A stretch of DNA of 64,000 nt from Qipengyuania flava (GTDB lineage: Bacteria; Pseudomonadota; Alphaproteobacteria; Sphingomonadales; Sphingomonadaceae), in contig NZ_CP080410.1 in NCBI RefSeq assembly GCF_019448255.1, positions 1,612,001-1,676,000 on the forward strand. The letters run 5' to 3'. The position numbers and the translations under genes are program-made. This document shows, piece after piece, positions 35,146 through 38,533 of the stretch (position 1 is the stretch's first letter; the number at the start of each line of letters is the position of its first letter). The notes beneath the pieces were generated by a model. It did no database searches. It was not told the DNA's origin and was given only the letters and a program-made list of their open reading frames with translations.

Positions 35146-35191
35146 TCAGCCCGTGACATGGGGACCGCGCGTCCCCATATGGCGGGCATGA
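35146..35191 (+). promoter_or_regulatory. imperfect 20-bp hairpin spanning proS-rnr gap and rnr start
   Basis: ATGGGGAC (35158-35165) and GTCCCCAT (35171-35178) form a perfect 8-bp stem around CGCGC. The flanks extend it: GTCA-GCCCG at 35146 pairs with CGGGC-ATGAC at 35183-35192 with small bulges. The right arm contains the rnr start codon and its GGCGGGC ribosome site, so folding would hide them. Confidence 0.5.
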
Positions 35192-37509
35192 CAAAACAGA
35201 ACAAATTCCGGAAGCCGCAGGGGCTTCCGTCGAAAGAGAAAATACTCGAATTCATCCAGACCTCCGACACCCCCGCAGGAAAGCGCGAAATCGCCAAGGC
35301 GTTCGGGCTCAAGGGGCAGGAAAAAATCGCGCTGAAAAAGCGCCTCAAGGACATGGCCGAAGAAGGCCTGATCGACGGCAAGCGCACCGCCTATCACCGC
35401 ATGGGCGGCGTGCCCAAGGTGACCGTGCTCAAGATCGTCGCGATCGAGGACGGCGAGCCGGTTGCAGAGCCGGAGAACTGGTCGCCCGACAGCAAGGAAA
35501 AGCCACCTCGCCTGATAGTGAAGGAAAGCAAGAAGATGGCTGCGCTCAAGCGCGGCGATCGTATCCTTGCTCGCAACGAGGAAACCGAGCGCGGCTGGCG
35601 CGCGACCCCGATCAAGAAACTGCCCGCACGCACCGAAGGCCTGATGGGTGTCGTCGAGAAGGACGGCAGCGGCAATTACTGGCTCGCCCCCGTCGACAAG
35701 CGCGTGCGCGATAGTGCGCCCATCGGCGATGTCGGCGAGGCGCAGGAAGGCGAACTCGTCCTGGCCGAGCGCATGGGCAAATCCGCCCGCTCCAAGGTTA
35801 AGGTTGTCGAGGTCATCGGCGACCCGCTGGCGCCCAAGGCCTTCAGCCTTATCGCCATCGCCAAGCACGGCATCCCGCATGTCTTCCCCCAGGAAACGAT
35901 TGCCGAGGCCGAACGGGCGGTCGACCTGCCGCTATCGCCCGACCACCGCGAAGACCTGCGCGACGTGCCCATCGTCGCCATCGACCCTGCCGATGCGCGC
36001 GACCACGACGATGCGATCTGGGCCGAGCCTGATGGCAAGGGCGGTTACCGCGCGATTATCGCGATTGCCGACGTGAGCTATTATGTCCGCCCCGGCGGCG
36101 CGCTCGACCGTGAGGCGAGGAAGCGCGGCAATTCGGTCTATTTCCCCGACCGCGTTGTGCCGATGCTGCCCGAGGTGCTGAGCGCCGATGTCTGCAGCCT
36201 CAAGCAGGACGTCGACCGCGCGGCCATGGCCTGTCACATCCGCATCGACGCGGAAGGCAAGGTCAGCGACTGGCGCTTCACCCGCGCCATCGTCCGGCTG
36301 GCGAAGAACATCGCTTACGAGGACGCGCAGGCAGCCATCGATGCCGGCGATGCGCCCGAATACCTGCAGAACCTGTGGGGCGCGTGGAAGCTGCTCTTCA
36401 AGGCACGACAGGCGCGCGATCCGCTCGATCTCGAACTGCCCGAGCGGCAGGTGCGCCTCAACGACGAGGGCGTGATCGAGGAAATCGCCGTGCGCGAACG
36501 GCTCGATGCACACCGCGTAGTCGAGGATTTCATGATCGCCGCCAATGTCGCGGCGGCCAAGGCGCTCGAAGCCAAGGCCGCGCCGGTCGTCTACCGCATT
36601 CACGAGACGCCGAGCCGGGAAAAGCTGCTCGCTTTCAAGGAATACCTCGCCAGCCAGGGCAAGAAATTCGCCATGGGCCAGGTCATCACGCCGGGCCTGT
36701 TCAACCGCATGCTCAAGGACATTGCCGATCCGGCGGAAAAGGCGCTGATCATGGAGGCGGTTCTGCGCAGTCAGACGCAGGCCTATTACGGACCGGCCAA
36801 TGCGGGCCACTTCGGCCTCTCGCTAGGCTCCTATGCGCACTTCACCTCGCCGATCCGACGCTATGCCGACCTGCTGGTCCACCGCGCGCTGGTCGATGCC
36901 TACAAGCTCGAACAGCCCAACCCCAAGATCGACCTGCCGGAAGGCTCGGGCCTGTCCGACCGTGACAAGACCGCGCTCAGCCAGATCACCGATGCCATCA
37001 GCCAGACCGAGCGCCGTGCGATGGAAGCTGAACGCGACACGATCGACCGCTATGTCGCCGCATGGCTCTCGGGCCGCGTGGGCGAGACCTTCGACACGCG
37101 GATCACGGGCGTTCAGGGCTTCGGCTTTTTCGCCACCATCGAGAAGCTTGGCGGCGACGGGCTGGTCCCGGTCAGCACGCTGGGCCGCGAGTATTTCAGC
37201 TATGATGAGAAAGCGCAGAAGCTCGTCGGTGAGAGCAGCGGCACGGAATTCGCCGTGGGCGATCGCCTGAAGCTCAAGCTCGCCGAAGCCAACGCGCTTA
37301 CGGGGGCGCTCAAGTTCGAGGTGCCCGACAGCGATGGTTCGGGCATCGAGCCGCGCGGCAACCGCGCCGCGCCGAAGAAGCGCAGCCACCAGAAGCGCGG
37401 GCCGAAAAAGGGACCCAAGAAAGGGACCGGCGCACCGCGTCAGGCGCACGCCCAGGGCAAGCGCGGACGGCCGGGTAACATCCGCCACCAAGGGCGAAAG
37501 AAGAAGTAA
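35188..37509 (+). CDS. rnr: ribonuclease R
   Basis: 773 residues if the ATG at 35188 is used (ATG at 35179 is in frame as an alternative). A winged-helix N-terminus, cold-shock domains, the RNB catalytic domain with DPADARDHDDAIW carrying the metal-binding Asp residues, an S1 domain (VGETFDTRITGVQGFGFF), and a Lys/Arg-rich tail of about 60 residues (AAPKKRSHQKRGPKK). A 3'-5' exonuclease that degrades structured RNA. The tail is of the type that helps unwind or bind ribosomes. Confidence 0.95.
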   Translation: MTKQNKFRKPQGLPSKEKILEFIQTSDTPAGKREIAKAFGLKGQEKIALKKRLKDMAEEGLIDGKRTAYHRMGGVPKVTVLKIVAIEDGEPVAEPENWSPDSKEKPPRLIVKESKKMAALKRGDRILARNEETERGWRATPIKKLPARTEGLMGVVEKDGSGNYWLAPVDKRVRDSAPIGDVGEAQEGELVLAERMGKSARSKVKVVEVIGDPLAPKAFSLIAIAKHGIPHVFPQETIAEAERAVDLPLSPDHREDLRDVPIVAIDPADARDHDDAIWAEPDGKGGYRAIIAIADVSYYVRPGGALDREARKRGNSVYFPDRVVPMLPEVLSADVCSLKQDVDRAAMACHIRIDAEGKVSDWRFTRAIVRLAKNIAYEDAQAAIDAGDAPEYLQNLWGAWKLLFKARQARDPLDLELPERQVRLNDEGVIEEIAVRERLDAHRVVEDFMIAANVAAAKALEAKAAPVVYRIHETPSREKLLAFKEYLASQGKKFAMGQVITPGLFNRMLKDIADPAEKALIMEAVLRSQTQAYYGPANAGHFGLSLGSYAHFTSPIRRYADLLVHRALVDAYKLEQPNPKIDLPEGSGLSDRDKTALSQITDAISQTERRAMEAERDTIDRYVAAWLSGRVGETFDTRITGVQGFGFFATIEKLGGDGLVPVSTLGREYFSYDEKAQKLVGESSGTEFAVGDRLKLKLAEANALTGALKFEVPDSDGSGIEPRGNRAAPKKRSHQKRGPKKGPKKGTGAPRQAHAQGKRGRPGNIRHQGRKKK

Positions 37510-37556
37510 CGGAACGCAGGCGAGGCACCGGGCATTGGCTGGGTAAAGGAGAAACC

Positions 37557-38076
37557 ATGACCCAGCTCGTACCCGGCCAGCCCGTCCCAGACCTCGACCT
37601 TCCGCTCACCATCGATGCGCGCTTCGAATTGTCGAAGCAGTCGCCCGATGCCTTCACCATGCTGGTCTTCTATCGCGGCAAGCTGTCCGATCTGCAAGAA
37701 GTACCTCGAAGAGCTGTCGGGCAAACTCGGCAAGTTCACCGATAAGGGCATCAACGTCTTCGCCGTATCGATGGACAGCCCCGAGCGCGCGGCCGTAAGC
37801 CATGAGGAATGGGACACGGGCGATGTGCCTCTGGCCCACTCGATGAGCGAAGAGAAGGCCCGCGAATGGGGCCTCTACATCAGCCAGAAGCGCGACGGCA
37901 GCCAGGAGCCGGAAACCTTCTCCGAACCCGGCCTGTTCCTCGTGAAGCCCGACGGCACGCTACATTTCGCGGTTGTGCAGAACGCACCATTCACGCGGCC
38001 CGATCTCGACGATCTGCTAAGCGGGCTGACCTACACGCTCGAACACGACTACCCGACGCGCGGCACGCTGACCTGA
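37557..38076 (+). pseudogene. AhpC/TSA peroxiredoxin-like gene, frameshifted at the catalytic CPxC
   Basis: A strong start at 37557 (AAAGGAGAAACC) gives 42 correct codons ending FYRGK at 37682. The frame then breaks: one base (37683) is left over, and the next frame begins with CPICKKYLEELSGK at 37684, running to the stop at 38076. Family members normally have a residue such as His before the first Cys, so a 2-base deletion explains it exactly. Unshifted reading ends after 62 residues at 37745. The restored product would be about 173 residues with active-site Cys44 and Cys47. Either the gene is broken or the assembly has an error here. No slippery sequence is evident. Confidence 0.75.
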
Positions 38077-38080
38077 TCGG

Positions 38081-38533
38081 TCAGGCGAGCGCGTCGATCT
38101 GCTCGCGCCCCAGGCTGCCCGGCACCAGGTAGAGTGGGCAGGGCAGGCTGCTTGCGTTGCCCGCAAAATGGGTGACGAGCGGTCCGGAATTGCCTTCCGC
38201 GCTCGTCGCCAGCACCAGCGCGGCGATGTTGCCGTGTTCCTCGATGTACTTGCGGATCACGTCGGCCGGCGGACCGGGGCGTACGGCGATCGTGGGCATC
38301 TTGCCCATTTCGCCGAAAATATTGCCCGCTGCCGAATTGGCCATCACCTCGGCCCGCTCGCGCGCTTCCTGCTCGATCGTTGCCTGTACGCCGCCAAAGG
38401 CGTTGAAGGTCTGCTGCGGCACGAGCGCAAGGATATGCACCGATCCGCCGGTCTTGCTCGCCCGCAGCGAGGCGAAGCGCAGCGCCTGCTTGGCTTCGTC
38501 GGTCTCGTCCATGACGACAAGGTAAGTTCGCAT
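38081..38533 (-). CDS. universal stress protein (UspA family)
   Basis: 150 residues from the ATG at 38533, which has GGGGAG upstream. The long in-frame extension to 39349 is spurious because it is antisense to pdhC. Usp fold: N-terminal strand RTYLVVMDET, a central VRPGPPADVI, ALVLATSAEGNSG as a variant of the G-2x-G-9x-G(S/T) ATP loop, and a terminal CPLYLVPG. The ATP loop is imperfect, so nucleotide binding is uncertain. The stop is 4 bp from the frameshifted peroxiredoxin gene, convergent. Confidence 0.88.
   Translation of the reverse strand: MRTYLVVMDETDEAKQALRFASLRASKTGGSVHILALVPQQTFNAFGGVQATIEQEARERAEVMANSAAGNIFGEMGKMPTIAVRPGPPADVIRKYIEEHGNIAALVLATSAEGNSGPLVTHFAGNASSLPCPLYLVPGSLGREQIDALA

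Follow-up and report, generated by a model that had tools for sequence, protein, structure and literature searches.

The closest described systems are the AhpC/TSA peroxiredoxins (Pfam PF00578) of the CPxC type, with which the intact relatives of the gene analysed here share the domain and an invariant RG-x-H-C-P-x-C. These relatives score 56-68 bits against the Pfam model (cut-off 26), and nearly the whole domain is covered. Their best NCBIfam match is the SelL-related redox protein (NF040769), at 35-46 bits, but this is far under the curated cut-off of 120 bits, and their active site carries a cysteine, not a selenocysteine. They are under the cut-off of every other NCBIfam model among the matches listed as well. 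The solved structure that they resemble best is 2cx3, a thiol peroxidase of the bacterioferritin-comigratory type (E 2.2e-07). The listed literature on SelL, selenocysteine and peroxiredoxin-like redoxins held nothing useful. A second point of reference is the bacterial frameshift pseudogene in general, with which the gene shares a single small indel in an otherwise conserved sequence, intact orthologues and a patchy presence in the genus. The gene described here differs from PF00578 peroxiredoxins in that it is split over two frames, of which the downstream part alone reaches the cut-off, and from frameshift pseudogenes in general in that its lesion is either very young or unconfirmed, and is not accompanied by secondary lesions.

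The gene lies in a window of 64,000 nucleotides (the whole stretch of DNA that was analysed), which corresponds to positions 1612001-1676000 of the single contig of 2.85 Mb that contains it. The near relatives of the source genome are Qipengyuania and Erythrobacter species. Coordinates of the features are given in Table 1. The ATG at 37557 is preceded, five bases upstream, by a sequence resembling a Shine-Dalgarno element, and the last in-frame codon before the break is AAG (37680-37682). Past the break, the start frame continues through 20 out-of-frame codons and then stops. The junction reads AAG-C-TGT, and there is no homopolymer at the lesion. The preliminary description of this DNA had placed a frame change at 37683, after a strong start and 42 codons, and was correct in both coordinates and content. 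It had also located the break on the active site. The break does fall directly before the first Cys of CPxC, but the Cys codon itself is unaffected, and it is the preceding His codon that is hit. The further idea that a loss of two bases would restore everything has the direction wrong: the window already lacks two bases compared with its relatives, and taking two more restores nothing.

Table 1. Features of the broken peroxiredoxin gene and its neighbours, in window coordinates.
Feature	Position	Strand	Basis
Shine-Dalgarno-like AAGGAG	37546..37551	+	direct sequence reading
N-terminal 42 codons of AhpC/TSA-type peroxiredoxin, start frame	37557..37682	+	sequence; tblastn with relatives
Frame-break site	37683..37683	+	2 bases short compared with relatives, in the codon of the invariant His preceding the first Cys of CPxC
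C-terminal remainder (AhpC-TSA), 130 codons, from CPICKK to the stop at 38074-38076, +1 frame	37684..38076	+	sequence, Pfam, relatives
Out-of-frame tail past the break, ending in TGA 37743-37745	37683..37745	+	start-frame reading
Upstream neighbour, ribonuclease R-like (rnr)	35158..37509	+	sequence; conserved in related loci
Convergent downstream neighbour, called usp	38081..38518	-	present in 60/60 genus genomes

Both parts of the gene are recognizable. The downstream part passes the cut-off of the Pfam AhpC-TSA model (E 1.8e-11; 44.5 bits, cut-off 26), and the 41-residue upstream part matches it weakly (E 0.27), under the cut-off. In relatives, the two parts lie in one frame and are 77-90% (upstream) and 90-92% (downstream) identical to the window, so that the conserved remainder in the other frame, which the preliminary description had noticed, is borne out. 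As judged from these alignments, the match of both parts to single-frame relatives is not due to chance.

We compared 66 loci, including the window's own, which represent 47 distinct gene sequences (46 besides the window's) and were drawn from two overlapping sets, namely 60 genus genomes and a collection of genome contigs (36 loci). All 31 full-length genus copies besides the window's are included, 29 of them as L002-L030 and the remaining two, from G014 and G050, as L052 and L054 (the contig coordinates agree). In all 65 other loci, YRG-x-H-C-P-x-C is read in one frame from an upstream start codon, and a single open frame thus extends from the strand ahead of the active site through the peroxidatic Cys; the window copy is the sole exception. 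All 15 aligned proteins share the His and the Cys found at the break. The window copy therefore combines a disruptive, non-triplet indel with intact orthologues, as expected of a frameshift pseudogene.

The lesion has left no trace of decay around it. The comparison with 23 relatives, chosen as the nearer ones among the 65 loci, covered 168 codons, of which 39 precede and 129 follow the break; the window copy has two private residues, and the relatives have between 0 and 11 each. In the 3′ part, dN/dS is 0.05-0.11 for ten pairs that include the window, within the range obtained when six relatives are paired with one another (0.015-0.12, fifteen pairs), and so is not raised; in the 5′ part, the values are noisier (0.04-0.23 for pairs with the window, 0-0.46 among relatives). 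Relaxed constraint is thus not seen in the window copy, although it is not required of a very recent pseudogene. These substitution patterns indicate that normal constraint acted on the gene until very recently, or still does. Since constraint is undiminished and every relative is intact, the lesion is very recent or an error, as the preliminary description had supposed. Absence of decay is expected equally of a very recent mutation and of an assembly error.

The genomic context bears on how easily such a gene is lost. Its neighbours are a gene that we take, from its sequence, to be rnr and, on the opposite strand, a putative usp. The downstream peroxiredoxin part is matched in 33 of the 60 genus genomes, the source genome included, and is without a match in 27; the match in one of them (G046) is a fragment of only 27 residues. 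Because usp is found in all 60, the absences are not due to missing sequence at that gene. We viewed the spot between rnr and usp in 15 loci: three have the gene (G008, G043 and the source genome), and the other 12 come from genomes in which no full match was found. The interval between rnr and usp measures five bases in four of these genomes (G021, G025, G055 and G056). In two others (G017, locus L102; G030, locus L120), the spot is taken up by another gene, which runs on the opposite strand and is presumably a helix-turn-helix regulator from its resemblance to such proteins. In a further two (G005, locus L094; G041, locus L096), the interval spans 467 and 902 bases, respectively; the two stretches begin alike and neither matches the peroxiredoxin. 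Two related species retain remnants of the gene at this spot. In G046 (locus L103, match at about 1946-2026), a start-like stretch is fused to the last 27 codons, so that a large internal deletion has removed the active site. In G027 (locus L100, about 1950-2015), only the last few peroxiredoxin codons and the stop appear to remain, and this remnant looks like a second, independent loss. The source genome itself has nine AhpC-TSA matches, that is, the broken gene and eight others, and seven of the nine are over the cut-off. On account of the absences, the remnants between rnr and usp and the other AhpC-TSA proteins in the source genome, loss of this peroxiredoxin is ordinary in the genus, and its distribution indicates that the gene is dispensable there.

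Taken together, we consider it probable that the locus is a recent, ordinary loss-of-function frameshift pseudogene of a dispensable AhpC/TSA-type peroxiredoxin, flanked by rnr and usp in a marine bacterium of the Qipengyuania/Erythrobacter type. The loss of two bases at the His codon before CPxC would throw the ribosome out of frame, and translation from the strong start would, as can be read off the codons, give a product of 62 residues without the catalytic cysteines. Starts within the gene in the other frame, at 37615 or 37648, would give a protein devoid of the native strand that leads into the active site, so that a working enzyme would not be expected from them. The expectation in the preliminary description that peroxidase activity would be abolished is sound. 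Other proteins of the genome with an AhpC-TSA domain probably cover the function.

The explanation that comes second to a real mutation, and that we regard as rather unlikely, is that the gene is intact in the strain and lost two bases in the consensus. Full constraint up to the stop and intact copies in all relatives would fit such an error, and the verdict rests on the consensus sequence of one genome of the species. On the other hand, the assembly, a single contig, is rated 100% complete, no homopolymer is present at the site, and a two-base change outside a homopolymer is not the usual type of long-read error. Furthermore, the surrounding chromosome is clean. An initial coarse scan of the window returned many frame-change candidates, and the five regions inspected were, by appearance, antisense ORFs, shadow ORFs or genes extended upstream of their true starts. 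We also scanned 264 kb (the window and 100 kb on each side) against two relatives, with 161 orthologues and 173,277 coding bases compared for G004 and 163 and 175,296 for G059, a scan that is blind to shifts very near gene ends and to genes without orthologues in these two. It gave four candidates per relative, of which one was in each case the peroxiredoxin gene, and no other was judged a genuine frame break. As for the others, alignment identified g5_1290 as an ORF that runs antisense across the point where two sense genes meet, and g5_1491 and g4_1429 as spurious matches of the upstream or shadow type. Judging by the starts in other relatives, g4_1151 and g4_629 are start extensions. The only basis for judging g5_871 spurious was its N-terminal piece of 27 residues, which is out of frame. 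With one genuine break in 264 kb, the assembly is not generally indel-ridden. A real mutation and an error are separated in part only, and the clean 264 kb and the repeated loss of the gene within the genus tip the balance towards the former.

The preliminary description had also entertained a recoding site, and a ribosomal frameshift of +1 or -2, whether programmed or tolerated, could in principle join the two frames into a working enzyme. Both parts of the gene are indeed under constraint, and the RNA after the break forms a mildly stable hairpin (z -1.35); however, 20 of 200 shuffled sequences fold at least as stably, so that the structure is not significant, and AAG-C-TGT offers neither a slippery run nor an adjacent stop. 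Moreover, no shift is needed in any of the 65 other loci (a split frame is found in none), and we therefore reject a conserved recoding site on comparative grounds as well as for its missing signals. A +1 shift would delete the invariant His and a -2 shift would replace it. Recoding specific to this species, which by a shift exactly at the active site would restore a peroxiredoxin whose residue ahead of the first CPxC Cys is changed, would be most improbable, and we give frameshifting as a whole hardly any credence. Among titles and abstract openings in the listed literature, we found no case of programmed ribosomal frameshifting in a bacterial peroxiredoxin, and the main text of a paper listed among work on complete Qipengyuania genomes (PMC9241875) contains neither 'peroxiredoxin' nor 'pseudogene'. 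A split enzyme, in which the short N-terminal product works together with a polypeptide begun internally at 37615 or 37648, is equally far-fetched, since, although no stop interrupts the downstream frame from 37615 onward and it has ATG codons, the internal product would carry out-of-frame residues at its start where the native strand TMLVFYRG should stand, and there is no precedent among the relatives examined.

The significance of the locus is small: it would be another dispensable stress gene broken in the recent past, or else a single assembly error, and most likely no new mechanism. If the two-base frameshift is a real mutation, the genus may hold a series of stages in the loss of this peroxiredoxin, from the intact gene through the frameshift in the window, the internal deletion in G046 and the last codons in G027 to rnr and usp lying five bases apart.
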